Below are positions 32,840 through 53,041 of a DNA stretch of 64,000 nt, in pieces. The number at the start of each line of letters is the position of its first letter. Position 1 is the stretch's first letter. This DNA is from Paracyclopina nana (taxonomy: Eukaryota; Arthropoda; Copepoda; Cyclopoida; Cyclopettidae), in assembly GCA_019096065.1 (NCBI GenBank), contig JAGUCH010000003.1, positions 4,774,001 to 4,838,000 of the forward strand, read 5' to 3'. Position numbers and translations under genes: made by a program. The notes under the pieces are model-generated. The model was given only the letters and a program-made list of their open reading frames with translations. It did no database searches and was not told the DNA's origin.

Positions 32840-33076
32840 CCTCCCCCAAGTGGGTACGGATACCCCTGGGTAGCTGTAGTCACTAACATATTAGCCTATC
32901 AATTGACCTCGAACTACTCTAATTTTGGGGCCTAGGATTTATGATATACCTAGCAAGCGAGAATTTCGATGAGAGCATAAAAAACCTAATGAAATAGAAA
33001 AATAGGAAAAATGCATAGCGTATCAAAATTCAGTTCCATCATCCGATCCAGTGTCTTCATTTCTCTATGTTGCTCT
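32840..33076. other. 3' untranslated part of the nested Gypsy
   Basis: Short stretch between accessory ORF B and the 3' LTR holding the polypurine tract. Nothing else seen. Confidence 0.5.
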
Positions 33077-33850
33077 TCAAGGCGATGTCGTCAAAGCAAC
33101 CTCCCCTCCATTGGTGCACCATATGACCATGCCAATACCAATAGCTACCATTGCAGCTACAAAAATGCCGTACTTCTGGCGATCATCTCTGGCCAACTCG
33201 TCACGCTTCAAGTCTAGGATCTTGATGACCTCGGACTTCGTGACGGAAGCTTCATCTTCGGAACCATCATCCAATTTGCATGCCTTGTCCAGTTGACCGA
33301 ATCCAATGAGCTCGGCCTCCAGCATTATGCCTTGACGGGTATATGCCTTACCGGCCCTGGCCGAGAACCCATCGTGCTTGGCAGATTCCGCGTTCTCGTA
33401 ACACGGTCTGGAGATTCTGCGGACCCCTTCGGCGTCAACAACTACCCTCAGGGGTGTCATGGGGACAATCCGAGTCCGCTTCCATTTCTTGCCAGGCGAG
33501 TTCATGGCCTTGTGGATGTTGTCGAAGATCTTGTCCAGCATTCGCCTGTAGCCATTGTACTGGTGCTTCAAATCCGCACGCAGCACATCCTTTGTCCAAA
33601 TGAGGTCCCTGACCTCCTGGTTGGCCTCAGCCAGATTATGCTCCAGTTCGGTGATCCTGTACTGGGCATCATAGACTTCCTCCTTGGCCTTCGCCAATTC
33701 GGCTTTGAGCTTGGCTACATCGTCCAGCTCATTGAGGGTGGCTACATCTAGTGGCGCTGGTGCGATCAGGCGCTCATCTACAGGTGCGTTGGGGTCCCAA
33801 TCGGGATGATCCCAATCAATGGGGGAACGGTCACCTCGGGCTTCTGACAT
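33077..33850 (-). CDS. Accessory ORF B of the nested Gypsy: coiled coil with C-terminal membrane anchor
   Basis: 257 aa. An acidic N-terminus (SPIDWDHPDWDPNAPVDER) leads into a heptad-rich coiled coil (about residues 40-90), a basic middle (PGKKWKRTRIVPM) and a C-terminal hydrophobic helix (YGIFVAAMVAIGIGMVIW) with a very short end. No signal peptide is seen. Just upstream of the ATG the element-sense sequence TTTTTCTCTGTGTTGCAG looks like a splice acceptor, so it is probably made from a spliced mRNA. I do not recognise the family; it takes the place of env but looks like a tail-anchored or stalk-like protein. Confidence 0.65.
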   Translation of the reverse strand: MSEARGDRSPIDWDHPDWDPNAPVDERLIAPAPLDVATLNELDDVAKLKAELAKAKEEVYDAQYRITELEHNLAEANQEVRDLIWTKDVLRADLKHQYNGYRRMLDKIFDNIHKAMNSPGKKWKRTRIVPMTPLRVVVDAEGVRRISRPCYENAESAKHDGFSARAGKAYTRQGIMLEAELIGFGQLDKACKLDDGSEDEASVTKSEVIKILDLKRDELARDDRQKYGIFVAAMVAIGIGMVIWCTNGGEVALTTSP

Positions 33851-33874
33851 GCCTGCAACACAGAGAAAAACACT

Positions 33875-34624
33875 TTAGATATTGTTGTAAGAGATGGCAA
33901 AGAGACGATTTCGCCGTCTCTGCTCCTCCTCCTGCAAGGGGGGCGAGTCAGGATGCGAAACCGTTGGTGAACTTCCCAGCGGGGAGGCTCCATAAGCCAT
34001 GTTTGGCAAGCTCTGTACAACTCCTGGGAAAGGTTGATAAACCATCGGATGAGGGGTCGGGGCGATGGACATTGTCGAGGCGAAGGGCGTGACATAGGGT
34101 GACGCATAGCCTGGACAGCCATATGGGGCAGGGGCTTGTTGGGGGTAGACCGGTGGCTGCACATTTGCAGCTTGGGAGTGCATGATCAACAGTGAGTCTC
34201 TGGCCCTTTTCCTCGCGCTGGCCTTCTTCCGCCATTTCCTGAACCGCAGTCCAATCCATAGCAAAGCCATCAAAGCGCAAAAGGCCACTCCATAGAAGAT
34301 CCAATGCGTGACATCTCTGCCAGTTGCCTCAGCAGCTGACTTGTCCTCCTCGCTGGAGCCTTGCGGAACCATGATATCGATGTCCGCTAGCCTAATACCA
34401 GTGTGGCTGGTCTCATCAACAACCTGAGTCTTCGCTTTGTCGGCGCTGTTGGTTGTACTTTGACCTGATCCCATTATAACCTCCGACCAAGTGCAATTTA
34501 CAGGGGGACAATTTTTTACAATGCTTTTTGCAATTAGGGCAGCTAACTTCTCTTCGTTTTTCTTAGCCTCTTCTGCGGTCGGCGTGTTCAAAGTACCGAG
34601 CCACTGGGTGTATGTATACATCAA
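33875..34624 (-). CDS. Accessory ORF A of the nested Gypsy: single-pass membrane protein
   Basis: 249 aa. A short N-terminal part with two Cys (NCPPVNCTW) is followed by a hydrophobic helix near residue 110 (WIFYGVAFCALMALLWIGL), then a strongly basic segment (RFRKWRKKASARKRARD) and a long Pro/Tyr/Ser-rich tail (PPVYPQQAPAPYG). The basic patch after the helix predicts a cytoplasmic C-terminus. PPxY-like and proline-rich motifs in the tail could act as late domains, which is inference. It ends 24 bases before ORF B. Not recognised as any known env. Confidence 0.6.
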   Translation of the reverse strand: MMYTYTQWLGTLNTPTAEEAKKNEEKLAALIAKSIVKNCPPVNCTWSEVIMGSGQSTTNSADKAKTQVVDETSHTGIRLADIDIMVPQGSSEEDKSAAEATGRDVTHWIFYGVAFCALMALLWIGLRFRKWRKKASARKRARDSLLIMHSQAANVQPPVYPQQAPAPYGCPGYASPYVTPFASTMSIAPTPHPMVYQPFPGVVQSLPNMAYGASPLGSSPTVSHPDSPPLQEEEQRRRNRLFAISYNNI

Positions 34625-34635
34625 AAAAGACTTAC

Positions 34636-34673
34636 TGAGTGCTGATGGAAATGTTTTCCTGGAGAAGGTGCTG
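34636..34673 (-). promoter_or_regulatory. Possible 38-base micro-exon upstream of accessory ORF A
   Basis: In element sense CCCAGCTTTTGCAG at 34687-34674 is a good acceptor, and 38 bases later (34636/34635) comes the strong donor A|GTAAGT. It lies between pol and the accessory ORFs and could be a leader exon spliced to ORF B. Confidence 0.4.
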
Positions 34674-34785
34674 CTGCAAAAGCTGGGCGTTGAGTGAGGT
34701 GCTTTACTTACTAGTCATAACGATGCATTTGCATCGAGGTCAGCCGTCTTATGCTTGCGTAAGAAGCGCTTGTTCCTCACACTGA

Positions 34786-37700
34786 TCACGCCATCATCAT
34801 TTTTGATGACGTAGCTTCTACCGGAATGCCGAACTTCGAGGATGACTCCGAACTCCTCCCATAGCTTAGTAAGTGCATTTTGCATGCGCACTTTTCCCCC
34901 ACCTTGAAATCTGGAATGATCTCGTTTGGCAATTGCTTCTTTTCAGCTCTGGGTTCTGGCATCTCAAGCTTTGTCATCTCATGCAAGATTGGTAATTTCG
35001 TCCTTAAATGACGGCCCAAAAACATCTTCGCAGGGGATTTGCCGTCTGCTCGTGCCAGATTTCGAAATTCCAGCACAGCGGCATTCATCTCCCTTAGGGT
35101 CTTGGTTTTCATAACCAGCCTTTTCATGTTTTTCACACTAGCTTCCGCGGTCCCATTGGACTCGTGGTGATAAGGGCTGCTGGTGGTGGCAATTATGCCA
35201 TGCTCTTTACAAAACTCACGCATTTCATGAGAGGTGAAGCATCCAGCATTGTCGGATCTCATCACGATCGGGTACCCAAATGTGGCAAAAATGATCGTCA
35301 ACTTCTTGATGATTTCCTCACTAGTGTATCTTACCATCTTGAAAATCCAAGGCCAACCACTGAAGGTGTCCACAACTATTAAATAGTCTGCCCCTTCATG
35401 ATGGCCCAAATCCATTGCAATACTCTGCATTGGGGCCGTTGGTACCATGTTCTCGCCTTCTTCATCATGCGGTAAAGAGGCCATGTACTTTTGGCACATT
35501 TCGCACTCTTCTACTGATTGTCTGATATCCTTGGTCATACCACTCCAATAGTAGAATTGTCTGGCCGTAGCCAGGCTCTTCGTTTGCCCAGGATGCGCAA
35601 TATGAAGAGTCCTCAAGATGAATGGACGTGCTTCCTTTGGTACGAAGACACGTTTCCCATCAATGACAACCATTCCATCTTGGACTGAAAGCTGCCCCCA
35701 AAGGTTTTGGGGCACCAGCTTTAATGCATGAATGGCCACACCCTTCTTCTTATGATGATGAAGGTCTTCCTGGATGGCCTCAATTAGATCCTGATACTCC
35801 TTGTCAGCTCTTGCTGCATCATGGATTTCTTGGAATGCCGGATCTTCTTGTGCTGAGACAGAGAGGGCTGAGATTACGCTGATCTTTGAGTTCTTCAAAG
35901 TTTCTGTTTCTTCAGCGTCTGGGTGGTCATCTGAGAAGTTAATGGGATGTCTTGACAAGGCATCTGCAATGAAGTTTAACTTCCCCTCAAGGTAGACCAA
36001 ATCGAAGTTGAACGGTAGTAGCCTCTCCCTAAGCCTCAAGAGTCTGGAGTTAGTGATTTCTGCCATGTCCTTATTCATAATACCAAGTAAAGGCTTGTGG
36101 TCAGTCTTCACCAAAAATTTTGGGCAGCCATGCAGAAAATGCGAGCTCTTCTCACATCCATAGACTATTCCCAGCAACTCCAGCTCAATAGTTGCATAAT
36201 TCTTCTCAGCAGCGGAGTTGACCTTGGACCCACAGGTAATCAGGTAGCTCCTGTCCGGGTCTTTTGGGTCATACTGAGTTAGAATGTAGCCGATGCCATA
36301 TAACCTGCTGGCATCCGTTGTCAACACTGTGGTCTTGTTGACATCAAAATGCTTCACCAACAAAGGTCCGGTCAGGATCTTCTTCAGCTGGTTGAAGTCT
36401 TCTTCGTGTCTTGGTAACCACTGAAACTGAACTTTGGCCTTGGTTAGCTCCCTCAATGAAGCTGACATGTGGGCCAAATCAGGCAAGAAACTTCCTAAAG
36501 TTTGAGCCAATCCCAAAAAGCTTCGCACATCCGACTGGTTGGCTGGCCTTGGGTACTCCCTGATTGCTTTCAAGTTGTCATCGTGTGGTTCTACACCATT
36601 CTTGCTGACCATGAATCCAGCAAACTTGACACGTTCACCCATGTGCAGCTTTTTGGGTGATAAGCTGACACCATAGGTTTTGCAGTTGCTGAGGAGGACA
36701 TCCAGATTGTGCAGGGCTTCCTGCTCTGTTTCTCCCCAGATGAGGACATCATCGACCAATTTGACTCCCTTTCCGTTCAGGGCAGTCATGATCATGTCGC
36801 TCCTGCAGCACCACTCATCACTGGAAGATGTGAGCCCCATGGGAGCTCTCACATAACGGAATCTTCCCTGTGGTAGCAAAAATGTAGTCAAGTAGGATGA
36901 CTTTTCTTCCAACTTGATCTGGTGGTATCCCTGCGCACAGTCTCCGACCACAAACCACTGAGCCTTTGCAGGGATGCTCTTCAACAAATGGAATGCAGAC
37001 GTAAAGGGGTGGGTTGGTCTCTTCACGTACTTGTTCAGCTGAACAAAGTCCGTAACCAACCGGACAGATTTCCCATCAGACTTGATGACAAAGAAACCTC
37101 TAGAGGTCCAATCTGTCATCTCCCCTGGCTTCAGCTTCTTGACAATGTCGGCATCCTCCAAATCCTTAATGCACTTGTCCGCCGCTGCTTTGAGATGCAC
37201 CGGTATGGCATTGGTTGAAGAGATCCTCATAGGTTTTATGTCCCCATCCACTAGGTGGATCTTCATGGGTTCACCCTTCATAAACCTGGTTTTGTCAAGC
37301 TTGTCTGCAAAGACCTCTGTATATTTGAGCTTCAAGCTCTCCAGAGTCATATCCATTGTGGTTGCTGCGATTGCCGTGGAGTTAATGTTTAGGCCAACCA
37401 CGCCTAATATCTCCAGTGTCTGCCAGTCGACAATCACCTCTTCATCGTCACCAAGTGAAGCGACCACTGCATTGGTTACTACAACCACTTTCATGCCACG
37501 TGATATTGCAATCTCACATGTTCTGCCCGTCTTCACTTCGGTGCCATCAACGCTCCTGACGGTCTCCGGATTGGGATGTATTGGCATCCCCATCTCCGCT
37601 GCAACTTTCTCATCAACCACAGTAATGGTTGCTCCAGTATCTGGCAGGCAATACGTAGAGAAAGCAGACCCTATCTCAGGGCAAAATAATAGCTTGGCCT

Positions 37701-37920
37701 TGGGAGTTGGCCTTGATGACGTGACCCTGGTAGCATTGGGTAGGCATGAGGGCCGCAGCCCGCTCACTGCCTTGGAGATCTTCTGCTGCATCTCCTTCTT
37801 TTTTCTGCTCTTGGTCTTCGCCATCTTGATAACCCCTGCCCCTCCGTCATCTTCCTCCATCCTCTTGATGCGACTCTGAAAAATGAACGGCAGAGAGTAT
37901 CTATCTTTTGATTTTTTCAT
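34786..37920 (-). CDS. pol: pol polyprotein of the nested Gypsy (PR-RT-RNaseH-IN)
   Basis: 1044 aa in one frame. Domain order: aspartic protease (YCLPDTGATITVV, DTG), reverse transcriptase (WTSRGFFVIKSDGKSVRLVT, VGDCAQGYHQIKL, APMGLTSS, active site KLVDDVLIWG), RNase H (TTDASRLYGIGYIL, TIELELLGIV, TDHKPLLGI), integrase zinc-binding region (LHIAHPGQTKSL ... CEMCQKY) and integrase core with Asp in SIAMDLGHH, Asp in VMRSDNAGCF and Glu in NGTAEASVKN. All catalytic acids are present. The RT box is LVDD rather than the usual Y-x-DD. The ATG overlaps the gag stop as ATGA, suggesting translation by termination-reinitiation or frame shift. Confidence 0.9.
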   Translation of the reverse strand: MKKSKDRYSLPFIFQSRIKRMEEDDGGAGVIKMAKTKSRKKKEMQQKISKAVSGLRPSCLPNATRVTSSRPTPKAKLLFCPEIGSAFSTYCLPDTGATITVVDEKVAAEMGMPIHPNPETVRSVDGTEVKTGRTCEIAISRGMKVVVVTNAVVASLGDDEEVIVDWQTLEILGVVGLNINSTAIAATTMDMTLESLKLKYTEVFADKLDKTRFMKGEPMKIHLVDGDIKPMRISSTNAIPVHLKAAADKCIKDLEDADIVKKLKPGEMTDWTSRGFFVIKSDGKSVRLVTDFVQLNKYVKRPTHPFTSAFHLLKSIPAKAQWFVVGDCAQGYHQIKLEEKSSYLTTFLLPQGRFRYVRAPMGLTSSSDEWCCRSDMIMTALNGKGVKLVDDVLIWGETEQEALHNLDVLLSNCKTYGVSLSPKKLHMGERVKFAGFMVSKNGVEPHDDNLKAIREYPRPANQSDVRSFLGLAQTLGSFLPDLAHMSASLRELTKAKVQFQWLPRHEEDFNQLKKILTGPLLVKHFDVNKTTVLTTDASRLYGIGYILTQYDPKDPDRSYLITCGSKVNSAAEKNYATIELELLGIVYGCEKSSHFLHGCPKFLVKTDHKPLLGIMNKDMAEITNSRLLRLRERLLPFNFDLVYLEGKLNFIADALSRHPINFSDDHPDAEETETLKNSKISVISALSVSAQEDPAFQEIHDAARADKEYQDLIEAIQEDLHHHKKKGVAIHALKLVPQNLWGQLSVQDGMVVIDGKRVFVPKEARPFILRTLHIAHPGQTKSLATARQFYYWSGMTKDIRQSVEECEMCQKYMASLPHDEEGENMVPTAPMQSIAMDLGHHEGADYLIVVDTFSGWPWIFKMVRYTSEEIIKKLTIIFATFGYPIVMRSDNAGCFTSHEMREFCKEHGIIATTSSPYHHESNGTAEASVKNMKRLVMKTKTLREMNAAVLEFRNLARADGKSPAKMFLGRHLRTKLPILHEMTKLEMPEPRAEKKQLPNEIIPDFKVGEKCACKMHLLSYGRSSESSSKFGIPVEATSSKMMMA

Positions 37921-39530
37921 AATGCGTATTGCCTCATTGCAAGCAATAGCGTTTTACACTCCAACGTGCTAGAAAAATCAAAACTCAAAGGCAACTTAAC
38001 TGTGAATTTTTTAATGGCTTTCGTCGGGTTCCCGTTCGGCTTCTTCTCGCCACCCTCGCCCTTGCCTTTCTTCTTGAAGCATTTGTCCGCCCCATGACCC
38101 TTCTTCTTGCAAAATTGACAGGTTGGTGCCTTCGGACAATTTGGTCGGAGGTGCTCTTTACTTCCGCATTCAAAGCAACCTCCATGCTTCTTCTTCTGGC
38201 TTGAACCTGCGGCCTCAGCCCCAGCATTCGAGCCCATGGCCTTTTTCTTGCGATAAGCAGTAGGCCCAGCCTTCTTCACGGTAGGGTTCTCGTAACCCTC
38301 TTCGGTGGCTGTATTAACATCATACATATTGCCATCCGATTTGAGCTCATCCATCGTTGCTTTGCCGCCAGCTAAGTTGTCGGCCTTGATAAGCTCTTTC
38401 CGTAAGGCTTTATTAGCTAGAGAGCTCATATAGAGGTACTTCATTACCGTCTCTATGTCCATGCTCTCGAACTCGGCTGCTTTGCATTTCAGCTCAAATG
38501 CAGCCCAACTCGTTCCATGCAGCTCGCTTGGGTTTGTACTTTTGTGACGAAAGCACTCCAGTCTTCTCTTAGACAATGGAAACGCCAGCTGGAACTCGTT
38601 TACTACGATCCTCTCCATTGAAAGGATCCAAGGAGTGCCCACATTTTCATCTTGTATGAAAAGGGGCGATTCCGCACTCAACTTTGCTGAAATCTTGGCT
38701 GATAGATTGGCATCAAATAATACCAGACTGTAAGTGTGCTGGGCATCGATGGACTTCTTCTGGATCTCCGACTCTTGAACGTAGGTCTTCCAAGTCCTCA
38801 AAAACAACTGCAGCTCAATGGCTGTAGCACCAGTCTTCAGCGTTTTCGGCTTCAAATTTGCATCCGGCTTGACAATTTTTCTGTCCTCTGATGCCGGTGC
38901 ATTTGATGCCGATATGGCAGTTGGGTTGGCCTTTTCGTACCGGCCTGTGATTGCCAGTGCTTTCAATTCCAGGGCATCCTTTCTCTCGAACATCTCCTTG
39001 ACCTTGTCAGCTTGAGTGACTCGGGTCTCGTCCGGCAGGTTATTTAGAATCTGCATGATGCTATTCTCCTGGTCGACCAACTTTTGTTTCAGCTTCTGGA
39101 GCTCTTTTGCTTCTGAAACTGAAATATCCTTCTGCCTTTCCAGGGCCTCGCATAGCTTCTCTCCGGCATTCATGTGCCTGGACAACCAACTCTTGTGTCC
39201 ATTGAGACTATGTATTTGTTTGGTGAGGTCCTCGAGTGCTCTTGCACCTCTGGCTTCGGAAAGCTTTCCGATTGCCAATTGCAAGTCAGTTGGATTCTCC
39301 TTCTCGGTCATCGCTAAATTTGCTCTGACCACACTTGTATCAAATGTGTCCTCGTCACTATTTGTGGCTGCCAAAAGCGTATCTTCGGGGCCCTCCGCTT
39401 CTTCTTTGGCTTCTTCTAAGGCTTTCACTTGCCTTTGAAGTGCTGCAAATACGTTCTGATCTGCAGTATGCCACTCTTCTTCGCCAGCACTTTTAATTGA
39501 GTCCTGGCTCATGGACACTTTTGTTGACAC
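37917..39530 (-). CDS. gag: gag of the nested Gypsy
   Basis: 537 aa. The N-terminal third is acidic and coiled-coil-rich, the centre is a capsid-like region (LQLFLRTWKTYVQE ... RRLECFRHKS), and the C-terminus has two CCHC zinc knuckles (CFECGSKEHLRPNC and CQFCKKKGHGADKC) within Lys/Gly-rich sequence. It ends at TGA 37917-37919, overlapping the pol ATG (37918-37920). Confidence 0.85.
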   Translation of the reverse strand: MSTKVSMSQDSIKSAGEEEWHTADQNVFAALQRQVKALEEAKEEAEGPEDTLLAATNSDEDTFDTSVVRANLAMTEKENPTDLQLAIGKLSEARGARALEDLTKQIHSLNGHKSWLSRHMNAGEKLCEALERQKDISVSEAKELQKLKQKLVDQENSIMQILNNLPDETRVTQADKVKEMFERKDALELKALAITGRYEKANPTAISASNAPASEDRKIVKPDANLKPKTLKTGATAIELQLFLRTWKTYVQESEIQKKSIDAQHTYSLVLFDANLSAKISAKLSAESPLFIQDENVGTPWILSMERIVVNEFQLAFPLSKRRLECFRHKSTNPSELHGTSWAAFELKCKAAEFESMDIETVMKYLYMSSLANKALRKELIKADNLAGGKATMDELKSDGNMYDVNTATEEGYENPTVKKAGPTAYRKKKAMGSNAGAEAAGSSQKKKHGGCFECGSKEHLRPNCPKAPTCQFCKKKGHGADKCFKKKGKGEGGEKKPNGNPTKAIKKFTVKLPLSFDFSSTLECKTLLLAMRQYAL

Positions 39531-39735
39531 TTTTTTGTTGTGATGCTGCCAAGGGTGGCGGAACTTTCACAATTCCACTCACGAAACCTTCTCCGGCTGC
39601 CTCTCACACTTTGTTGTCGTGATGCTGCCAAGGGTGGCGGAAATTTTCCACTCACAAACCTTCTTCGGCTGCTTCTCAAACCTTCCCTCTTCTAGGAAAG
39701 GGCCTCTTATGCAAAGAGACTGAGAACTGACGCCA
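39531..39735 (-). repeat. Leader of the nested Gypsy with a tandem duplication and primer-binding site
   Basis: The segment TGATGCTGCCAAGGGTGGCGG with its neighbouring CTTC-GGCTGC sequence occurs twice (about 39540 and 39617), a tandem unit of about 77 bases. The primer-binding-site-like TGGCGTCAGTTCTCAG (element sense) abuts the 5' LTR. Confidence 0.55.
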
Positions 39736-40032
39736 TGGTTGGTCCCGACCTCGTGGGTGACACTTAAGGCACTACTACTCGAGCTACGTCGGTTGGATCC
39801 CTGGTCTTGTACCAGGAAACCGTGAGCACTACTACGCCGAGATTTACCAGATCGAGGCGAACGTATCCACTTTGATACGAGATGTGTACTGAGTGTAATT
39901 CAGTGCAAGCTTAAGCAATACAGAAAGAATGAATGAGTGCACGCGCGCGCTGGGGTAACAAGGGAGTATCTACTATAGCTATAATACACGTGAGAGTCAA
40001 TATAGGGAAGTATGCTTCAACATGATACAACA
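39736..40032 (-). repeat. 5' LTR of the nested Gypsy
   Basis: 297 bp, apparently identical to 32543-32839, followed by the ATAGG target duplication at 40033-40037. Confidence 0.9.
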
Positions 40033-40520
40033 ATAGGTACCTCATTGACGATCCGAAACTTTACACATAAAGTTACCTTAGTGGCAAGAGGGCTTTCCTT
40101 TGCCGTATAACGTAATAGTTCTAGAAAAACGTCCATGTCTTCATAAGTTTTAGGGGCAAATGGTACAAACCCTTGACGTTTGGAACAAGCTTTGTCGATG
40201 GTGTTAGGGGTACTCTCTTCTCCAACTGCCAACATATTCCCAATATGGACCAAGTCCTCCTTGTCCTTAACTTCTTTTACCACGGTGTCAATATTATTCA
40301 GGACGCCAATTGTTGATTGCAAAAGGCCACTGTAATCCTTCGTATCTAACACCATAGCCTTTTTCACCATTCTAGGATGATGGACCACTCTAACTGGAAC
40401 TAGGGCATGTCCGGAATGGCAAAGTGCCTCATCCAGTACGAACTGAGTATTTGGGTAGTTGGACAGGCCCCAAGTGCCAGATCCCAAAAGGGTGAGTATG
40501 AAGGCCAATTCAAACGACAT
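40017..40520 (-). pseudogene. env-like gene of the giant element, 5' part
   Basis: A start with a clear signal peptide (FELAFILTLLGSGTWG) and an ectodomain-like sequence with several Cys (LDEALCHSGHAL, DKACSKRQG). The reading runs up to the nested Gypsy and ends in a stop just inside its LTR. The remainder lies at 31139-32539. The interruption is the only evident lesion of this gene. Confidence 0.65.
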
Positions 40521-40758
40521 CTTACCAGCACAAACTCTGATCAGAAACTATTTGGGCCCCAAGACCGCTAACTTTCCTTATAAACCCAGACAAGTATGGG
40601 CACGCCACCTCACTATGTCTAGACATTCTTTGCTTTTTTCCATTGGTTTTTTATTATCATAGCATGTCGACATGTATGGTAAAAAGTTAAGAGTATTGGC
40701 CCACAACCAAGTATTTTATCAATATGTACAATTCGATTCTGAAGGGTAATTTCATTTT

Positions 40759-42135
40759 TTAGAACTGCCCGACAAATCCATTAATCGCCTCAGTGAATAC
40801 CTTGATGTCGCTGGGGGTCATTTCCTCCATTTTAGCCTGGAGGAGATAGTTCACACGCTCCTTATTCTTATCGACTTTGGAGCGCTTAGCGTGCAAAATG
40901 TCTGGTCCATTCGTTCCTGTGCCAAAAGGGCGCCCGCGCGCTACATCGGCGTACAGTCTAGGTCCTCGCCTTGGTTTTTGTTGCCAAGACTTCTCCACAA
41001 ACGCAGCTAGTTTTTGGGGCCTGGCCCCGGCTGTGTACCTCACGCATTGCGGATATGTCCCAATGGCTCGATCGACAAACTGGGCTACCATGGTAGGCAG
41101 GAGTGCGGTCATATCGATCTTCACGTCCAATTTTCGTGGTGCTTGAGCCACGCCATTGTTAAGGCAGGACGGCGGTCCCACATACAGTTGCACGTAAGGC
41201 GACGTCAAATCATGGAACATCCGCGGATCCCAAAATGATGAGTCCAATGTTGGCATGATCTGAATGCAGCCTCGCTTGGTATAATGTTTGGAGACTACTA
41301 CAGGGAGTTGAGCTCCACCCTGTCCACGGATTCCATGCACATAATACCCAACAGCTGTTGGGCTCTGGACGGCAGACCAACTCCTGACATTGGCCAACTT
41401 ATGGACATTCTCGTCATATTCCATCTTGTCAGGCAAGTTGTAGACTGGTAGATTGTCTAGCATCGGAAATATAACAAGAAAATCGGGAATCTCCCCTCCT
41501 TTACTCACTGGCTCGATAATCAATTCAATGCAGTCAAAGTTTTTCACCTTCAATGGCCTACGAGGCTCGGTCCGTTCATAGGGTTCTCCATTTATCCTGA
41601 TCGTTAGGTCAAAAGGCACCTCCTTTCCAACAGTCATGACCTCTTTCGTAGCTATCTTCAACAGGCTTGCATCATAATGCTGCTGTATAGTAGCTCTGGT
41701 CCGGCTCGCCTCCCTCGCATAGGCCTGTAGGCCCTCCATGTGGGGAGGCCTGATCAAATCCTCAAATGGCAATGGGTACCCCAAACTGGAGGATACCCTT
41801 TCCAATGGGACCTCGAGGGGTTCCTCTTGGTCCTGGTGTCTAGTCGTCTGATTTAGGGCTTGGTTCTCAGTATTGACAGCAGGCATGTTGCGATCCATAA
41901 CTGGCTCATCATCCTTTAGGAGCTCACTAACCTCATGCTCGTTGAACTCTCCAGTCTTATCAGTCTCCATCATGGAGACCAATGCAGATTCTCCTTCCAT
42001 GGCTTCGGTGATCAGAGACATCCTTAGGTTATCGAGGCTATTCAAGCTATCGCTCATTTCCAGACTGTTGCTGTAGGGCCGTAAACTGCCCTTTTTATAC
42101 GCATCTTTACAGGTATGCCCCACACTCTCGGGCAT
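40759..42135 (-). CDS. Unknown 458-aa ORF of the giant retroelement
   Basis: Open from 42135; an inner ATG (MSDSLNSLDN, residue 28) may be the real start. The N-terminal third is acidic and Leu/Ser/Glu-rich. The rest looks like a folded, beta-rich protein (PFDLTIRINGEPYERTEP, DCIELIIEPVSKGGEIPD, SPYVQLYVGPPSCLNN), and the C-terminus is basic (QQKPRRGPRLYADVARGRPF). No Cys clusters, signal peptide or membrane segment are seen. It lies in sense between the integrase region and env. I do not recognise it. The mix resembles virus structural or nucleic-acid-binding proteins, which is only an impression. Confidence 0.6.
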   Translation of the reverse strand: MPESVGHTCKDAYKKGSLRPYSNSLEMSDSLNSLDNLRMSLITEAMEGESALVSMMETDKTGEFNEHEVSELLKDDEPVMDRNMPAVNTENQALNQTTRHQDQEEPLEVPLERVSSSLGYPLPFEDLIRPPHMEGLQAYAREASRTRATIQQHYDASLLKIATKEVMTVGKEVPFDLTIRINGEPYERTEPRRPLKVKNFDCIELIIEPVSKGGEIPDFLVIFPMLDNLPVYNLPDKMEYDENVHKLANVRSWSAVQSPTAVGYYVHGIRGQGGAQLPVVVSKHYTKRGCIQIMPTLDSSFWDPRMFHDLTSPYVQLYVGPPSCLNNGVAQAPRKLDVKIDMTALLPTMVAQFVDRAIGTYPQCVRYTAGARPQKLAAFVEKSWQQKPRRGPRLYADVARGRPFGTGTNGPDILHAKRSKVDKNKERVNYLLQAKMEEMTPSDIKVFTEAINGFVGQF

Positions 42136-42226: not shown

Positions 42227-42232
42227 TATAAG
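42227..42232 (+). promoter_or_regulatory. TATA-like box before the first antisense gene
   Basis: TATAAG on the plus strand about 195 bases upstream of the ATG at 42422, followed by a GC-rich segment (GCGCGTGCGCGC). A promoter role is inferred. Confidence 0.3.
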
Positions 42233-42421: not shown

Positions 42422-43471
42422 ATGGTCATTTTAGCCTGGGTTTCTCTAACTCCAGAGGGCAGCTCTACAGAGGCTCCCACTGAGGTTCCAATCCAGCCAT
42501 CAACGGTGGGTCCTGCGCTAGTGGATTCTCAAACCACGGGCCCAGTAGGTCCTACTGTTGCTATTCCTGAGAGCGGCATTTCTGAAGCTGAGGGTGGACC
42601 TGGATTTGACCCAGCTCCTGTCGATCCCTTTGAGGTGGAGGTGTTTGACCCCCGAGATTTAATGCCAGCGGTACCAAATGGTTATCGTCCCGTTGCCCCT
42701 CAGAGGGACTGGATCGATGAGGTTTTCAATTATCACCGATACGGTGTAATGGGGTGGATCGGTCTTGGAGCCTCCATTGGGATGGCTTTGGTAAGTTCAA
42801 CTTTATGGCTAGTTTTGCGACTATGGCCAAATTTTATTTACCACCTCTTCCTTACAGATTTTGCTTGGCATGTTGGTGTACTTCTGCGTGTGGACATCAC
42901 GATGGTGCCGTAGGTTCGTGGCCACGTTTCGAGCTATTCGTACGGAGTCAGCGGCTGCCAGTGGAGCCATGCAAATGCTTCCAACAAAGGCCCCATCTGA
43001 GCATGCAGCGGTATTCCACTGCTGTACACCAGAGGTCCGAGCTTTGCCACCAGCCCCGATTATGCGTGACCCTGATGTCCATTCGCTCCAAATGGCAATG
43101 GCTGCCATGGACCCCTATGGAACACTACGCCGGAATCCCAGCATCATGTCCGGGCTGGCCCACATCTATGACGTCCCTAATCCCAAGGGCTGGGTAAGGA
43201 CCTATCAATTTATGAACTGTAAACAGGTTACTCATGTACTCTTTTTCATGCACCTTTTCAGGTACCTGTTACTGAAGGGTGTGGACCGCGGACTTTGAAG
43301 AGACGATCTCGCCGGGCTCGAGCCCGAGATAACCGTCGCTTGGATTCGGCAGCGGAGTCCATTCCGGACAAGGACGAGATCACTGAGGCTGAACCTCTCT
43401 CCATCGCAGATGAGGACCAGGATTCCGCCGAGTCAAAGGCTTCCCAGGACGTGAACAGCGATGCCAACTAA
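42422..43471 (+). CDS. Spliced membrane-protein gene, antisense to the giant retroelement
   Basis: Three exons, 42422-42790, 42858-43193 and 43262-43471, each a whole number of codons (123, 112, 70), separated by 67- and 68-bp GT-AG introns; 304 aa. The N-terminal part is rich in Thr, Pro, Glu and Val. The first junction falls inside a hydrophobic helix that is complete only after splicing (GLGASIGMAL plus ILLGMLVYFCVW), followed by a basic RWCRRF. The C-terminal side is Met/Pro-rich and ends with a basic patch (KRRSRRARARDNRR) and an acidic tail. It is a predicted single-pass membrane protein with cytoplasmic C-terminus; no signal peptide is seen. AATAAA follows at 43780. Family unknown. It could be captured host or viral DNA, or an element-specific accessory gene. 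Confidence 0.65.
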
Positions 43472-43779: not shown

Positions 43780-43785
43780 AATAAA
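43780..43785 (+). terminator. AATAAA poly(A) signal of the first antisense gene
   Basis: AATAAA about 310 bases after the stop at 43471, on the same strand as the spliced gene. Confidence 0.5.
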
Positions 43786-43960: not shown

Positions 43961-44518
43961 ATGGCGGGCTTCCTACACGGCTTGTTCGTAAGTTTTTATT
44001 TCGATTAAAATCCGGTGAATCCTTTCGTTAAACTGTATCTTTTTCATTGGGAATGCAGAATCCTTCTACTACAACGGTGGCGCCAGCCACCGAGGCTCCC
44101 GTAGGGGCGCCCCCCGCGGCCGAGTCCGCGGCGGGGTGGCCCCAGCCACCTGCGGCCCCGCCCGCAGGCCCTTTGGGCCATCAGGAGGCGTGTCCTCCCT
44201 GCCCCGTTCAGGGCTTCGTAAGTGCATTATTCGTTATCTATTTGGTCAAAGCTTGACTTTTTTCTCGTATTACAGGCCGAAGAGATCCTCTAGGGCGTGG
44301 CCCTGAACGTGGCAGGGGCGGCCACGTATTACGTGGTGGTGCTCCCCGCCCTCGTCTGGGTCCACCGGACGAAGCCGAGAGGCCTCTACCGGCTTGTCAG
44401 CCGCGTGTGGGCGGAGCCCGAGGACCTCCCCCGCATTTCTGCGTGGGTCCTCCGCATGATGGGCGTGGCGGAGGCGGACCCCCTTGAAGGAGTCGTCTAG
44501 TAAGTCTAACTTATTCAC
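43961..44518 (+). CDS. Second spliced antisense gene, with an in-frame TAG
   Basis: Exons 43961-43987, 44059-44217 and 44276-44518 fit GT-AG introns of 71 and 58 bp, all in phase 0. Exon 1 gives MAGFLHGLF. Exon 2 is Pro/Ala/Thr-rich with a Cys pair (ACPPCPVQG). Exon 3 begins AEEIL and then meets TAG (44291-44293), after which the same frame stays open for 75 codons with a hydrophobic helix (LNVAGAATYYVVVLPALVWV) and a basic/acidic tail (HRTKPRGLYRLVSR). The plan (Pro/Thr-rich start, helix, tail, phase-0 introns) resembles the neighbour at 42422-43471. Exons 2 and 3 are very GC-rich. Whether the TAG is read through, mutated or bypassed is unknown. Confidence 0.45.
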
Positions 44519-44664
44519 TTAAGCTATCACAGCTCCACTATATTCATCTTATCTTTTTGCAGAAATCGTCTCGTTATCGGTAGGCCACCGCACCGGCCAG
44601 GGCTGGCCCCAACGTGGCCCAAGGCCAGCCCGCCCCCCTCGCCTGGAGGCCTCCCTTACGGGAC

Positions 44665-44670: not shown

Positions 44671-46501
44671 GTCCACGTTCATTGTACTTTTTGTGTCTAC
44701 TGTGTTCGCCGCAACTCATTTCGCGTTTACCTCAGCAGATAGCTCAGCCTTATGAAGCTCAGCACCTTTCTAGTCAAGTTCAGCAGTTCATTATCATAGC
44801 CAAGCACATTTCGAGTCCAATTTTTTACATTTCATGGCCAAAAGGACCGTAGACCATATCTCAGGTGTCAAGAATTGCATTTTAATTGCATAATTAATCA
44901 TTAGCGAATCATTAGCGGCCCAAACCCACAGATTCGGGCCTGTAAATAAGCTAGCATTCCAGCTCGACCTTGACGGCCTTGACACTGCAAACGATGCTTC
45001 AATGTTCAAGAAAAGCGTTTACTATAGCCCTGCATTCCAGCTCGGGCTTGATGCAGCACCATATTTGAGTGTCTGCGATTACTACCGGCCAAGCGTTGGT
45101 GCTTATGGGCTACCAATGCCAATTTGGCATCCTTTTTTCCTTGGGCATTCCGGCTCGGCCTTGAGTGCGGCGAAGGAAACGTAGTCCCTACAGGACTGGA
45201 AAACCGGCCGTATGTCATTGCACATAGCAAAAGCAAGCTCAAGCACTAGGCAATGGCACAATATTCTTTTCCATATCAGGCTAGAAGACGTGTATTTTTC
45301 ATTTTCTCACATGTCAGTCTACAATGTGTGCTGACCTAGCTTGTTTTGCTAGCGCTGTGTTTAGCGTAAATTGAATTCTCCACCAAAAAAGAGGGGATTC
45401 ATGTGGCAACTGCAAGATAGCCACATTTCAGCACTTCTTTTATTTAACAATATGCCTAATCTTTGTGCACTTTGAACCTTTTCTTCTGTTAGTCCATCTG
45501 GCGGTCATTAGCGGTATCATTATAACATTAGTCATTTTCATTCTCTTGACTTTTATGTAACGTTTTATTTTATTCCTTGTACCCGCCTAATAAATCCCGG
45601 AATTTGGGTCACCACTCGAGTCAAGTATGGCCATTTTTGAGTTTAGATAAGTTCAAAAACCTTCCCAGGTGAATTGTAGGTGCACCGGCGGTTCCACTCT
45701 TCATTGTTCGTTTTAGCCTTGGGCAAAACGTTTTTAGTTCGTGGTTAGGCGCATGGTGGCGCCACCATTCTACATCTCCAAGCGAAGCCGCTCAAACTGG
45801 ATTTTTCTAGTGTGGGAGCGTCTCTGGATTTTTGTTCCATAACAACTTTTTGCCCCCCTTGGAGTCGGGTATCTGTTCAACAGAAACTGGCTCAGCGTCT
45901 TTGCGCCATGCAACTCACATTTCAGTCTATCTTGCTCAAATGTTTTTTGTCTAGCCATTTTGAACAGACTCATCGATTACGTTTTTATCTGTTATCACTG
46001 AATTGCATAGCTATTATAGCTCTGCATTCCAGCTCGGTCTTGATGCGTGCATCAAGTTCGGGTGCTCATAGCCGAAATTAATTTAAAAGATTGAGGTTAT
46101 CAGCACCGATCTTTTCAGCTAATTTCGGTTAGCACTAATAATAAGATCCATAAAGCAAATTTTGCACCTTTATGTGCTAGTGTTCAGATTTATAGTTTTT
46201 GTGGCACTTTGCCATTTCCAGTTTTATCTAGAAATTTTGTTTACAATACTTTCTCAGAGCGCGAGTGCGCTCAAAATTTGTGAAATTTTTGGGGCGCAGG
46301 CTGCATTTCCTGCGGCTCGTATATATACTCCCCCCTCCACAATTTTCTGCATTTTGTGGGAACTGTAGTGAGCAGTCACACAAAATTCAGGTAAGTATGT
46401 TTTCGAATCTTTTACTATAAAAGATCTTATCGGCTAGGCTAATTTTATTCAATGTTATTTAAACGATGGCGCCCGTGGGCACCATCCATGATATCAATAA
46501 A
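44671..46501. other. Non-coding middle of the giant retroelement
   Basis: No convincing ORF. The phrase GCATTCCAGCTCGG followed by CTTGA recurs near 44953, 45032 and 46023. At 46319-46326 a TATATATA box is followed at 46391 by a strong donor (TTCAG|GTAAGT) on the plus strand, possibly the promoter and first exon of another antisense transcript. Confidence 0.35.
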
Positions 46502-48056: not shown

Positions 48057-51000
48057 CTATTTAAACTTCTTAAAAGCTAGCTTGTATAGTTCATCATAGG
48101 TGAGACGCAGCCGCTTCATTTCATTTATGTTGCTATCATCTTGGTGATCCATGCCAGTCGCTTTAAGAAACTGAATATAATCAGGGACTGCAGCCATGTT
48201 TTTATTCAGTTTCCAATTAGGAATTACCTCTTCTAGTAACTCTCTCTCTTTTTGGTCAGGCCTTTCTTTCGTATTTGTAAACCTAACACGGGCGAATTCC
48301 CTGTCCTCCCGATCTAAAGGGGCTATTCGTGGAATATTAGGAAAGTATTTTTGTTCTTTACCAGTTTTGCTTTTCTCTTTCTCATACTTTCTTATGCCCG
48401 CTAACTTCCTGTAATCTACAGTTCCCTTTCTCTCCCGCAGTTGTCGTCTGGGAAGGATCCGTATTGGAGCGGGCTCACTAATCTCGGGTTCAACTGTTGG
48501 TTGGACAGCGGCCGAGGATTCTGGTTCCTTTGGTTCGGCGAATGATGTGGCTGCCGAACTACTCGGCTGGTCAGAAGACACCAAAAGGTTCGTGTCAAGG
48601 AGCTGTTGAACATTCTGTGAAGGACTTGTATCCTGTTCAGTTGTCAATGCTGCTTCGGAACGAGTCAATGCTTCAGAGGGATCAGGCTGAGCAATCGCAG
48701 GAAGACCCGCAGGTACGTTCTTTTTATTATACTTTTGAAACCCTGCCAGGGAGCGATAATTAACGTTTTTTCTTCTTCTTAGGTTATGAGGAAGAAAACT
48801 TAATGGAGACAACTTTTCTGGTTCATACGGAGCCCGTACAACAGCCTCAGGTGGCTTCTGAGTACCCGGTTGTGGAACTACTGGGCCAGTTTGCCTGAAA
48901 GTGGGGTGTGCAACCCCAGGAGTAGCTTGATGAGTAAGGTGCTCCTTTTCAGTCATAGCCAGGTCACCCAAAGGTGTAACCTTTGCCGAGGGGTGCTCAA
49001 GTACGTTTGTGCTTGGCACAGTTTGTGGTACTCCCGCATTTGGTAACTCACTATTTTTTGGTTGCAAATCAGGTTTTCTGACCGGACTTTTCATTATAGT
49101 ATACCGAACTTGAGGCTCCCCTCCTTCAGCTCCATAAATCTCCGGTTTCGGGGCACTGGGCCCTTCCATAGGATTATCGATTGGTGGAGAGGGAGGCCGT
49201 TTACGTGGTGAGAGGTCTAACTGGCGTCGTACAATATCGATTGCTTTTTGAACATTCTGTTTAATGCTTTTTGTCAACGGTGTACGCCGCAGATTTTTAC
49301 GAGCAGTATAATAAATTGTAGTTGTGTCATCACTATCACTACTTTCATTTTCATCATCGTGTGTATTTCCGCCGAATGGATCAGTAGGCAGTGCTAATTG
49401 CATACTTTCCAGGCCAGCAGATAAAGATTCTAGGTCAGTGTCAAATTTGGAAGGTGCGATGAAAGATGCTGCTTTTTCAACAATCTCCTCTATATTATCA
49501 TTGTCCTTATTAGGAGTTGCAGACATACTTTGGTCAGGAGTGTGATATTTCTCCGGACTTTCAGGTATATCTGGCACACGTTGATCACGGTATTGGCCAC
49601 GAAAGGCCCACTTTACAGGGCTGACCCCTGCAAGTGTCCCTTCACTGACGTTCGAGCGATCAGGAGTACTAATATGGTCAGGTTTGACACTTGGTAAATT
49701 CGGGTATAATCTTTCTTGTTGGGCCATTTCAGCAAAAGTAGGAGGGCCACGTTGGCTCAAGGCCAGCATGTCCTCATAAAATGCTTCATTGGGCCCTGTA
49801 TTTGCACTTCGTGCAATTGCTTGTTCAATAAATTCATCAGTGCCAGTGTCAGACAAAGAATCACTTGCTTCTTTGTGGAGAATATTATTACCAGCGTTGT
49901 CAGCTAGGTATTTTTCTTCTAACTTCTTACGGTCATATTGTTCCCACTGCTTTTGCACGAGTTGTTTATTTTCCTCCTGTATTCGCAAAATATCTGAGGG
50001 CTTAAACAAGCTCGCTGCCTTTTGCATGAGAATAGAACCAGAGCGCTTATAGGTTTGGTGAATCGCACTTGGCTCTGTGTCCATTGATGTGGACTGTGAA
50101 ATCAATGAACTTTGCGAGGCCACTATACTAGAGGCCTTTGTATGACCCCGCAAACTATAATCATGACTTTCAGGGGCTGCCCCTTCAAGAAATTCGATAA
50201 CCTCATTCCTTGCTTTTTTACGTAGAATTTCTTCCGGAGTGTAAGGTCGTTTCAAGAGGTTGGACAACTTTTCCGGAAGAAATCTATATAGTTCATGGAA
50301 TCGATATAACTTGACATGATCTAAGCTTACTTCACGAGTAAGCCCATCATAAAGGTATGGCTTTACAGTCACAGTCGAATGCTGTCCAATGTCAATAACT
50401 TCAAACAAATCATCCATAAATTTATACCGTTGTTTATTTATGGGATGTTTTATAACTAACACTAATGATCCAATCTCTGGTTTAAAGGAAGGTCTTTCAG
50501 TAGCCTTCATTTTTTCTAAGTGGAACTGTTCTTCTAGATCATATTCACGCATGCGTTGACGCCATTCGGCTTTATGAATTTTGTCCTCGCTTTCACTAAG
50601 TATTTCAAATACATCCCGTCCTAAATGATAGAACGGCATTTTATCGAAAAATAACGAAAAAGGTGTGGGGGTGATCTTCACCCCTTTATCATCAGTATAT
50701 GCCAAATAAGTAAGAGGGCGATTATTTATTGCGTAAATAGAAGTCTTAAACACATCGCATAACCTCATATTGTATGAGTTGGAGTTTAGGACTAATGCAC
50801 TCCTTATTATTCGTATAGCATTTTCAGCGTAAGCGTTCAAATGCTTGTATGGCGATAAAGTTCGGTAATGACATAACTCCTTAATTTTATAACGATCAAC
50901 AAGGCGTTGGAGGGCCTTATTAGTCGTTAGCTGGGCACCATTATCTGCAAGTAATGTTTTTGGCACCCCAAACAAAGAAATTACTTCTTCCATAGCATTC

Positions 51001-51368
51001 GCTACCTGCTTATATTTAGCATCCAATAGTGGTTTAGCAATTATCATCTTAGAATAAACATCGACAAATACTAACAGGTCTTTTGCGGAAGACCCTTTGA
51101 CTAAAGTGTCATCGAACTTGGCCAAATCAATCATTACCAATTCCCATGGCTGAGTCGGGATGCGGAAACGCCCCTTCCCAACAAACCTAGTATTAGCTTG
51201 GCGGTATAAAGCACAATGCATGCACGCACCAATAATAATACGACTGATTCTGGCTGAGTAAGTTGAATACATAGATTGGGTAAAAAGAGTATTAGTCTTT
51301 TTACTTCCCAAATGGTTATGTAGCAAATGAATACATGCCATCAGGTACACACAGTTGGGCATACTCAT
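48057..51368 (-). CDS. Integrase ORF with a very long C-terminal extension
   Basis: 1103 aa. Near the N-terminus is a zinc-binding pattern (HLLHNH ... CMHCALYRQ), then an rve-type core with Asp in VMIDLAKFD, Asp in LLADNGAQLT and Glu in LNAYAENAIRII, all present. A chromodomain-like or SH3-like piece may follow (IGSLVLVIKHP ... GLTREVSLDHVKLYRF). The last 700 or so residues are low-complexity, Ser/Pro/Glu-rich, with a repeated motif LRERKGTVDYRKLAGI / LRRRKNVNYRSLAGFQKY near residues 870 and 1000. Such an extension is far outside the usual integrase length. The start overlaps the preceding RT frame stop as ATGA, so this was probably part of one polyprotein. Confidence 0.75.
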   Translation of the reverse strand: MSMPNCVYLMACIHLLHNHLGSKKTNTLFTQSMYSTYSARISRIIIGACMHCALYRQANTRFVGKGRFRIPTQPWELVMIDLAKFDDTLVKGSSAKDLLVFVDVYSKMIIAKPLLDAKYKQVANAMEEVISLFGVPKTLLADNGAQLTTNKALQRLVDRYKIKELCHYRTLSPYKHLNAYAENAIRIIRSALVLNSNSYNMRLCDVFKTSIYAINNRPLTYLAYTDDKGVKITPTPFSLFFDKMPFYHLGRDVFEILSESEDKIHKAEWRQRMREYDLEEQFHLEKMKATERPSFKPEIGSLVLVIKHPINKQRYKFMDDLFEVIDIGQHSTVTVKPYLYDGLTREVSLDHVKLYRFHELYRFLPEKLSNLLKRPYTPEEILRKKARNEVIEFLEGAAPESHDYSLRGHTKASSIVASQSSLISQSTSMDTEPSAIHQTYKRSGSILMQKAASLFKPSDILRIQEENKQLVQKQWEQYDRKKLEEKYLADNAGNNILHKEASDSLSDTGTDEFIEQAIARSANTGPNEAFYEDMLALSQRGPPTFAEMAQQERLYPNLPSVKPDHISTPDRSNVSEGTLAGVSPVKWAFRGQYRDQRVPDIPESPEKYHTPDQSMSATPNKDNDNIEEIVEKAASFIAPSKFDTDLESLSAGLESMQLALPTDPFGGNTHDDENESSDSDDTTTIYYTARKNLRRTPLTKSIKQNVQKAIDIVRRQLDLSPRKRPPSPPIDNPMEGPSAPKPEIYGAEGGEPQVRYTIMKSPVRKPDLQPKNSELPNAGVPQTVPSTNVLEHPSAKVTPLGDLAMTEKEHLTHQATPGVAHPTFRQTGPVVPQPGTQKPPEAVVRAPYEPEKLSPLSFLPHNLRRRKNVNYRSLAGFQKYNKKNVPAGLPAIAQPDPSEALTRSEAALTTEQDTSPSQNVQQLLDTNLLVSSDQPSSSAATSFAEPKEPESSAAVQPTVEPEISEPAPIRILPRRQLRERKGTVDYRKLAGIRKYEKEKSKTGKEQKYFPNIPRIAPLDREDREFARVRFTNTKERPDQKERELLEEVIPNWKLNKNMAAVPDYIQFLKATGMDHQDDSNINEMKRLRLTYDELYKLAFKKFK

Positions 51369-53041
51369 ATATACTTTCGTATTGTCGCAACGCTAAAAGG
51401 TAACTTTACATTCTTGCGAATGACCAACAGGGCACCGTCAAGGACACGATATTTTACCGCAACATCTAGTGGTACTTTCTCTGGAGGCGAAAGCATAATT
51501 AGATTTATTATCTTTTGTGTTTCTTCACAATTTTGTTGCAACTTAATGAGTAGGTTGCGTGTAATTCCTGGTAAATGTGGCGATATTCGCCGTTTAACAG
51601 TGACTGTATCTACTCTTAAGTTATTTTCTATATGATTCACTGGCGAATCAAAATCAGCTTCACCATGAAATGAATGGGATAATTTAGAAAGTATCTCGTC
51701 CTCAAGAATTTCATCATCATCATGTTTTGCTTGAAGTAAGGTTGACGTGTCGTCGTGCACAAATGGCGGCTTCGTGCCGATCATGTCAACCCATTTGTCA
51801 TTTAGGCAATGCAACCTTTTCTGGAGTAGAGTCTTACTCATAGTTCCAGAATTCACAAGTGTATCATACACATGTGTAAGTAATTCCTGTGTCGTTAGCA
51901 CCTTATCTTTGATTGCATCGGGCAGAGGGTATTTATTTGCATAAATATCCTTCGTAATCTGCCCCGCAATAGAGTAGGGCGCATAAAATACAGTTTCACC
52001 TTCTGGCGTTTGATGGTACTTATTTAATAATACATCAACTACTTCTACCTCTGTGCGAGGTACAGCTCTCAATTTCCATGCTACAGGCAGGGAATAAATA
52101 CGAGCTGCTAGTCTATGAGTGAAAGCATCTTTACCAGTAAACGAACTAGCCAGCACGCTGGCTATTGATAGACAATCCGTAACTATGACTAGTCGCTCAT
52201 AGGCGAATAGTATGCTTTTAAAATGGTTTATCATTGTTAAAACTCCTAATGCTTCACGCTGAAACGAGTGGTACGAGAGGCAAACTGATAAAGGAAAGCG
52301 TGCGCTGTGTGCACCAACACACACAGCTTTACCATCCTCATTCACCTCCATTAATAAAGCTGAGGTGCTAATTACCCCAGAATCAACCACTAAATAACCT
52401 TCTTTAAAACGTGGCAATGCCAGTGACATACCTGTTTTAATCTCGTCTATTACTTTATAGAAACATTTTTCTTGGAAAGCAGTGAAGGTGAACTTTCCTG
52501 TTTTCCCTTGCGCTGTTTGTAATACATCTAGCAGTGGAGCTGTGTATGTAGCCATATTAGGACAGTACTGGCTTAACCAGTTTGTCATTCCAATAAACTT
52601 TTGCAGCTGTTTCTTGGTTGTGGGAATAGGGAAATCATCAAATGCAGACCTGAATTTATCGGGCATTCGCATAGTCATAATCCCATTTTCGTCAATAGAT
52701 ATTAGGTGCCCTAAGACTGTAGCTTCTTTAACACCTAATTGTGTCTTTTTAATTTGTAATAGGGCATTTAAGTCCTTGAGGCTTTGAAACAACTTCCTCA
52801 GATCACCTAAATGTCGTATGTAATCATCCAATGTAGCAGGCCTAGGCTTGCCAGGGTTCTTACAGGCCACAACCAAATCGTCTACATATACACATGTAAA
52901 GGGCAATATCTCAGGGTTAAGGGCCTGTTGGAGGAGCTCTGCGAACATTCTCGGAGCAATGGCGATCCCTTGTAGGCATGACTTACTTTTCAGAAAGACT
53001 GATCTATATATACTGCGAGGGACGTTACTGCAAAGCAGCAC
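51365..53041 (-). CDS. pol: reverse transcriptase core, RNase H
   Basis: 558-codon ORF. It opens inside RT (IAPRMFAELLQQ), has the YVDD active site (FTCVYVDDLVVACK), the Gypsy-type thumb/connection (TTKKQLQKFIGMTNWLSQYC) and an RNase H-like domain with Asp in LVVDSGVISTSALL, Glu in SFQREALGV and Asp in IVTDCLSIAS. Its upstream RT half lies in other frames (53154-53432 and 53042-53153), so at least two small shifts separate it from the start of pol. Confidence 0.7.
   Translation of the reverse strand: MLLCSNVPRSIYRSVFLKSKSCLQGIAIAPRMFAELLQQALNPEILPFTCVYVDDLVVACKNPGKPRPATLDDYIRHLGDLRKLFQSLKDLNALLQIKKTQLGVKEATVLGHLISIDENGIMTMRMPDKFRSAFDDFPIPTTKKQLQKFIGMTNWLSQYCPNMATYTAPLLDVLQTAQGKTGKFTFTAFQEKCFYKVIDEIKTGMSLALPRFKEGYLVVDSGVISTSALLMEVNEDGKAVCVGAHSARFPLSVCLSYHSFQREALGVLTMINHFKSILFAYERLVIVTDCLSIASVLASSFTGKDAFTHRLAARIYSLPVAWKLRAVPRTEVEVVDVLLNKYHQTPEGETVFYAPYSIAGQITKDIYANKYPLPDAIKDKVLTTQELLTHVYDTLVNSGTMSKTLLQKRLHCLNDKWVDMIGTKPPFVHDDTSTLLQAKHDDDEILEDEILSKLSHSFHGEADFDSPVNHIENNLRVDTVTVKRRISPHLPGITRNLLIKLQQNCEETQKIINLIMLSPPEKVPLDVAVKYRVLDGALLVIRKNVKLPFSVATIRKYI

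Follow-up and report, generated by a model that had tools for sequence, protein, structure and literature searches.

Intron-containing genes for putative membrane proteins on the opposite strand of a giant Ty3/gypsy-like element in the copepod Paracyclopina nana

A 64,000-nucleotide stretch of the genome of the copepod Paracyclopina nana (GenBank assembly GCA_019096065.1, contig JAGUCH010000003.1, positions 4,774,001 to 4,838,000 of the forward strand), hereafter called the window, harbours a Ty3-like LTR element that reads on the minus strand and spans positions 30109-60805 of the window (30.7 kb). This big element is bounded by paired LTRs, detected as two 930-nt repeats with 99.57% identity, and is flanked at both ends by a TAAG target-site duplication. 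Its main parts, listed by window coordinates, are the following.

30109-31034, minus strand: 3' LTR, with TAAG at 30105-30108 outside it (borders set by eye)
31139-32542, minus strand: 3' piece of an env-like glycoprotein ORF, sense, with a C-terminal hydrophobic anchor (by eye)
32543-40032, minus strand: younger gypsy-type element inserted into the glycoprotein ORF, with 297-nt LTRs that are 100% identical
40033-40547, minus strand: 5' piece of the env-like glycoprotein ORF, sense
40759-42135, minus strand: sense accessory ORF (458 codons), in head-to-head orientation with gene A
48057-56062, minus strand: protease, reverse transcriptase (RT), RNase H and integrase, in several frames in the window copy
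56056-58647, minus strand: gag, assigned by position, 863 codons
59880-60805, minus strand: 5' LTR, with TAAG at 60806-60809 outside it (borders set by eye)

Pfam traces in pol comprise, in order, RVT_1, RNase H and rve, together with protease, several of them lying below the curated cut-off, and in other copies of the element pol is one unbroken frame, at most 2669 aa long. As judged from PDB matches, the RT is nearest to Ty3, its best PDB rows being 4ol8 (E 1.7e-14), which we take to be the Ty3 enzyme, and the Ty3-G Gag-Pol structure 7q5b (E 3.1e-14). The gag ORF had no match in Pfam. Between pol and the 3' LTR sit the 458-codon ORF and the env-like glycoprotein ORF, all on the minus strand; the glycoprotein frame measures 637 codons in 34 of the best 51 matches in the genome. 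A fusogen match to this glycoprotein was found neither in Pfam, where the two pieces were searched separately, nor in the PDB, where the 3' piece was searched. The nested gypsy element carries, between its own pol and LTR, two sense ORFs with hydrophobic stretches (33077-34714, minus strand, by eye), which had no Pfam match above cut-off.

On the plus strand, opposite to the reading direction of the big element, lies a three-exon gene that we call gene A, with the following exons, introns and candidate signals.

42227-42232, plus strand: TATAAG, possible TATA box of gene A
42422-42790, plus strand: exon 1, 123 codons, predicted outer stalk, then the first half of the membrane helix
42791-42857, plus strand: intron 1, phase 0, GT..AG
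42858-43193, plus strand: exon 2, 112 codons, predicted second half of the helix, a basic stretch and a tail with YGTL
43194-43261, plus strand: intron 2, phase 0, GT..AG
43262-43471, plus strand: exon 3, 70 codons including the stop, a basic cluster and then an acidic end
43780-43785, plus strand: AATAAA, possible poly(A) signal of gene A, after the stop

The first-pass annotation of this locus had described exons of exactly 123, 112 and 70 codons joined across phase-0 GT-AG introns, and this structure stands as it was given. Exon 1 has 57 matches at 56 places in the genome (92 Mb in 10 contigs), and 48 of these 56 copies (the window and 47 others) were aligned, eight places being left out. 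Both introns keep GT..AG in all 48 aligned copies, with intron lengths of 61-74 nt. Exon 1 is 369, 354 or 366 nt long in 48/48 aligned copies and exon 2 is 333, 336 or 339 nt long in 43/48. All three exons are in frame, with a proper start and end, in 37 of the 48, a proportion that overstates intactness for the whole set of 56 places because four of the eight unaligned ones look damaged (one with a stop, two partial and one in two pieces). Two copies, L010 and L012, are mosaic at gene A, as if from template switching: their exon 1 is identical to that of the window, while exon 3 differs by 9.5% and the 3' flank by about 14%.

A pol was scored within 30 kb of gene A at 53 of the 56 places. It lies on the opposite strand, 8.8-16 kb off, at 52 of these 53, which bears out the earlier view that the gene is antisense to a retroelement; at the odd place, the nearest scored pol shares the strand of gene A and lies 21.6 kb away on its other side. 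Three places have no scored pol within this distance, which means little because just 78 of 342 pol candidates were scored. In most copies, gene A occupies the interval from pol to the 3' LTR and runs antisense to gag-pol.

The start of gene A is parted by a gap of 286 nt from the 458-codon sense ORF, to which it stands head to head. TATAA occurs in seven of nine aligned upstream regions, and its conservation suggests an internal promoter for gene A. The 458-codon ORF has a likely ATG at 42057 and, by eye, TATAAAAAGG at 42099-42090 on the minus strand; with TATAAG at 42227-42232 on the plus strand, this may form a divergent promoter region. Conservation of the region upstream of gene A and of intron 2 is about equal to that of the exons. 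On the 3' side, the same-strand poly(A) signal noted previously was confirmed as AATAAA at 43780-43785, and AATAAA is present within about 650 nt of the gene A stop in 40/40 of the 6-kb copies. The nematode SL1 leader was sought at up to 1 mismatch and not found, and a bacterial-type promoter scan, of a type not expected to apply here, found no promoter.

Comparison among the copies argues that gene A is a real, element-borne protein-coding gene of three exons, with coding constraint in all of them. The dN/dS ratio, which the first-pass annotation had proposed as a check, was 0.09-0.22 in 31 of 36 pairs among nine copies picked to span the divergence, indicating coding constraint; in the other five pairs, all with L055, synonymous sites are saturated and the ratio is not defined. 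Pooled pN/pS among the 41 closest copies was 0.29 in exon 1 (41 copies), 0.12 in exon 2 (37 copies) and 0.20 in exon 3 (35 copies). When exon 2 was shifted by one base as a frame control, pN exceeded pS in 14 of 15 pairs. Read on the minus strand in three frames, exon 2 of 10 copies contained stops in 28 of the 30 readings, and no minus-strand ORF of at least 120 codons lies opposite gene A. Six of the 10 copies also keep a second plus-strand frame open in exon 2, the remaining four having stops in it, so open frames alone are weak evidence.

The introns themselves allow a further comparison. It had been argued earlier that introns in a gene antisense to a retroelement survive reverse transcription, and the antisense position, the retention of introns in 48/48 copies and the lack of any genome match to a fused exon 1-exon 2 word at up to 3 mismatches all fit this argument, the word search reaching close copies only and having no positive control. 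Between the window and copies L049-L053, intron 1 diverges by 36-47%, exceeding the exons (20-29%), and intron 2 by 23-29%, no more than the exons. Both introns diverge less than the synonymous sites of most exons, so that they are either under some constraint or hard to align. Introns free of constraint would be expected to diverge at least as much as synonymous sites do, and this counts against the reading of gene A that we favour below.

The gene A product is predicted to be a single-pass membrane protein, whose N-terminus would face outwards by the positive-inside rule since basic residues follow the helix. Its outer part would be short and its tail disordered for the most part; the structure model of exon 2 has a mean pLDDT of 56.8 and is confident for about residues 1-20 only. 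The membrane helix straddles the exon 1/exon 2 junction, as had been noticed before, although read-through of intron 1 likewise gives a hydrophobic stretch, within a 172-aa open frame. A Y-x-x-L motif, a candidate sorting signal, is kept in the tail in 6/7 rows of the window's own family (family 1) and in 5/6 rows of a related family (family 2, see below).

Searches beyond the element gave the product no name, in agreement with its initial description as a protein of unrecognised family. Exons 1 and 2 of gene A had no match in Pfam, hence none to a TRP28-type plant antisense protein or to bZIP, and exon 2 of family 2 had none in Pfam either. A PDB profile search gave two rows, at E 0.43 and 0.53. 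One outside relative was found, a 126-aa protein that is 64% identical over exon 1; it is an unspliced open frame and ends 8 residues into intron 1, which tells against the reading of gene A that we favour. A spliced relative was not found among proteins of 114-362 aa, in databases that seldom hold spliced animal proteins, and a search with the exon-2 alignment returned no relative at E 0.01 among 906 candidates.

Downstream of gene A on the same strand lies a second antisense gene, gene B, which starts at 43961 and is predicted to be spliced and to encode a membrane protein.

43961-43987, plus strand: putative gene B exon 1, 9 codons, 27 nt in 41/41 rows
44059-44217, plus strand: putative gene B exon 2, Pro/Ala-rich outer part, pooled pN/pS 0.19
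44276-44293, plus strand: 18-nt stretch between two possible gene B acceptors, ending in an in-frame TAG
44294-44500, plus strand: putative last coding exon of gene B, 68 codons and stop, membrane helix and tail, pooled pN/pS 0.25

In the gene B alignment of 41 rows (the window and 40 others), intron 1 is bounded by GT..AG in 41/41 rows, and intron 2 has its GT in 41/41 and its upstream AG in 40/41. The last exon starts directly after the AG of the in-frame TAG, and the 18 nt that end in this TAG are identical in all 41 rows, whereas the adjoining exons have pS of 0.11 and 0.25. The pattern of two AGs and a TAG was also seen by eye in families 2 and 4 (described below). With these 18 nt, gene B could alternate between a truncated product and a membrane-bound one, or they could serve as a read-through site. 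The last exon has 79 matches in the genome, 77 of them without stops.

Several smaller features surround gene B. Inverted arms (44197-44214 and 44300-44317) lie around its in-frame TAG at the end of the 18 nt, with the commonest form in 37/41 and 35/41 rows, respectively; the hairpin has z -4.4 in the window and z 0.2 in family 2, and because it is absent in family 2 we do not call it conserved. A further GT..AG intron (44499-44562) opens inside the gene B stop codon (TA, then GTAAGT, in 41/41 rows), and its acceptor precedes an A, so that removal of this intron would restore a stop. On the plus strand at 46300-46420, in the interval from gene B to pol, a TATA-rich stretch followed by CAG and GTAAGT was seen by eye and is perhaps another promoter or exon.

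Three further element families, whose pol is about 79, 65 and 51% identical to that of the window's family, have an antisense gene at the place of gene A, and in all three a phase-0 intron splits the membrane helix at the same point. In family 2 (L056; pol 79%), the exons lie at 937-1317, 1409-1744 and 1858-2025 with phase-0 junctions, and exon 2 has 112 codons, as in the window, in five of six copies and 106 in L062. Six copies of this family have open exons and GT..AG, with dN/dS of 0.13-0.27 in 14 of 15 pairs, and the gene lies opposite the 458-type ORF at 16/16 matched places (compared by eye). Near the helix, exon 1 of families 1 and 2 is similar by tblastn (E 1.6e-5, against 6 kb) and by hhalign (E 2e-4, probability 47%, over 21 columns only), and no significant similarity was found between their exons 2. 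In family 3 (L057; pol 65%) and family 4 (L063; pol 51%), exons were placed by eye in one or two representatives each; family 3 has one extra intron upstream, both families lack the second intron, and the family 3 gene is antisense to the glycoprotein at 7/7 places. Sequence similarity supports homology for exon 1 of family 2, whereas the antisense genes of families 3 and 4 are taken as homologues of gene A solely from their location and architecture. In family 2 the outer part is rich in Thr, Ser and Pro, and in family 3 it carries five N-x-S/T sites, both of which fit a domain outside the membrane.

Gene B is homologous by sequence down to family 4: its last exon is 46% identical between families 1 and 4 over 54 residues (E 1e-15, a single comparison), and in family 4 it lies opposite pol at 6/6 places with a scored pol and is present at one more place without. 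This homology across families suggests that the antisense cassette is old. The earlier picture of gene A as antisense cargo therefore holds as regards strand, but with three more families and gene B as a partner it is probably an old part of the lineage and not the cargo of one element.

With considerable confidence, we interpret gene A as a three-exon gene on the opposite strand of a giant Ty3/gypsy-like element with an env-like ORF, forming an accessory cassette for membrane proteins that has a promoter of its own and retains its introns as the RNA of the element is the other strand. Within the 286-nt gap that gene A shares with the 458-codon ORF, host RNA polymerase would start transcription of gene A at a promoter belonging to this gene, and the transcript would be spliced and end at its own poly(A) site (43780). 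The LTR-driven genomic RNA would be the other strand, on which the gene A introns read CT..AC and would stay unspliced; intron-containing genes could pass reverse transcription because the genomic RNA is the strand opposite to gene A. Retroelements normally lose introns through RNA passage. In this case, a lineage of LTR elements seems to have retained genes with introns over a long time on its other strand, under selection across dozens of copies, which would make it an animal case of antisense accessory genes and a natural test of the rule that retrogenes are intronless.

Other explanations must be weighed against this one. The locus might act chiefly through an antisense RNA regulating the element, for example by way of double-stranded RNA, the protein being secondary. 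Antisense transcripts acting as RNA are among those reported for LTR elements and retroviruses (PMC7264820, PMC10186651), and the conservation of intron 2 and the upstream region at about the level of the exons would suit such a role. Constraint that is specific to the reading frame in all three exons, together with protein features conserved across families, nevertheless renders it improbable as the main account, and RNA and protein roles may coexist. We regard as very unlikely that a host gene was recently captured by one element and copied along as a passenger. Introns and signals of its own give gene A the look of a host gene, and no Pfam relative was found, but such a capture is at odds with the constraint across copies and is disfavoured by the finding that three other families have a similarly built antisense gene at this position. 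The exon-1 matches moreover fit copies of the element as far as tested (pol nearby at 53/56), and among the 57 matches there was no intact gene outside the element, three places being without scored pol. Chance or shadow open frames arising from coding on the other strand, to which the extra plus frame of exon 2 open in 6/10 copies might have pointed, can practically be rejected as an artefact of chance or composition, given no opposing minus-strand ORF of at least 120 codons, stops in 28/30 minus readings of exon 2, and dN/dS of 0.09-0.22, not near 1, as against pN above pS in 14/15 pairs when the frame is shifted.

Several features of our preferred reading have precedents elsewhere. Plant LTR elements are described with antisense ORFs between pol and the 3' LTR (Retand TRP28, Grande gene23 and RIRE2), and for the Grande antisense gene an own promoter has been reported (PMC11963269, PMC7264820). 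The copepod element is likewise Ty3/gypsy-type, and its lineage keeps an antisense gene in the interval from pol to the 3' LTR; however, the plant proteins are presented there as nuclear or DNA-binding-like, whereas here two spliced membrane-protein genes are predicted in an animal, and the word intron, which applies to gene A, is absent from the main texts of both articles (PMC11963269, PMC7264820). Among retroviruses, antisense genes include hbz and APH of HTLV and ASP of HIV (PMC10186651). As described in that source, HTLV hbz is antisense and spliced like gene A, but it starts in the 3' LTR, whereas an internal promoter is likely for gene A, and its product is a nuclear factor, in contrast to a predicted membrane helix and no bZIP Pfam match in exons 1 and 2. 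HIV ASP is an antisense hydrophobic protein at the plasma membrane and on virions, and it lies opposite env (PMC10186651), while gene A sits beside the 458-codon ORF with no overlap with a sense ORF of 120 codons or more and has two introns.

Among animal elements, planarian Burro is also Ty3/gypsy-like, about 30 kb long, with an env-like part and accessory domains, but these accessory parts are given as belonging to a giant sense polyprotein or sense ORFs, and "antisense" is absent from the article's text (PMC6431247). In rotifer LTR elements (Vesta), ORF3 encodes a small transmembrane protein without an assigned role so far, as is the case for gene A, though it is not described as antisense or spliced (PMC5408684). 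Penelope elements also move introns, and an antisense template would keep introns according to the authors; they form another class of retroelement, and the case described concerns host genes framed by Penelope repeats, as opposed to a resident constrained gene (PMC3846280). Among the open-licence papers listed in literature searches, none was on an animal LTR element with spliced antisense membrane genes. Antisense position, splicing, membrane products, giant size and intron carriage are thus known singly, and what is new is their combination, which is found in none of these systems as far as their descriptions go.

As to function, we tentatively propose, at somewhat less than even confidence, that the products of genes A and B are accessory membrane proteins which the integrated provirus would express without using its LTR and which would act on the membrane of the cell or the virion, where they would support or limit the env glycoprotein or re-infection. 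A more speculative and rather doubtful idea is that the two genes form a provirus-only surface module that marks cells already carrying the element, with the 18 nt of gene B switching between a soluble and a membrane form. Antisense orientation and introns would then ensure that the proteins are made from integrated nuclear DNA only and never from genomic RNA, and A and B might, for example, block re-infection or steer env. Temperate phages, in which lysogeny genes are read opposite to lytic genes, offer an analogy for such a module.

Outside the big element, the window contains a separate retroelement with RT and integrase (18069-24500, plus strand) that bears a Monjiviricetes-type fusion glycoprotein, matched by PF24664 in two frames at E 1.2e-26 and 1.9e-5. 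At 28000-29012 on the minus strand, an ORF has a YqaJ-like domain of viral recombinases, matched at E 1.4e-19, and also matches SWIM weakly.
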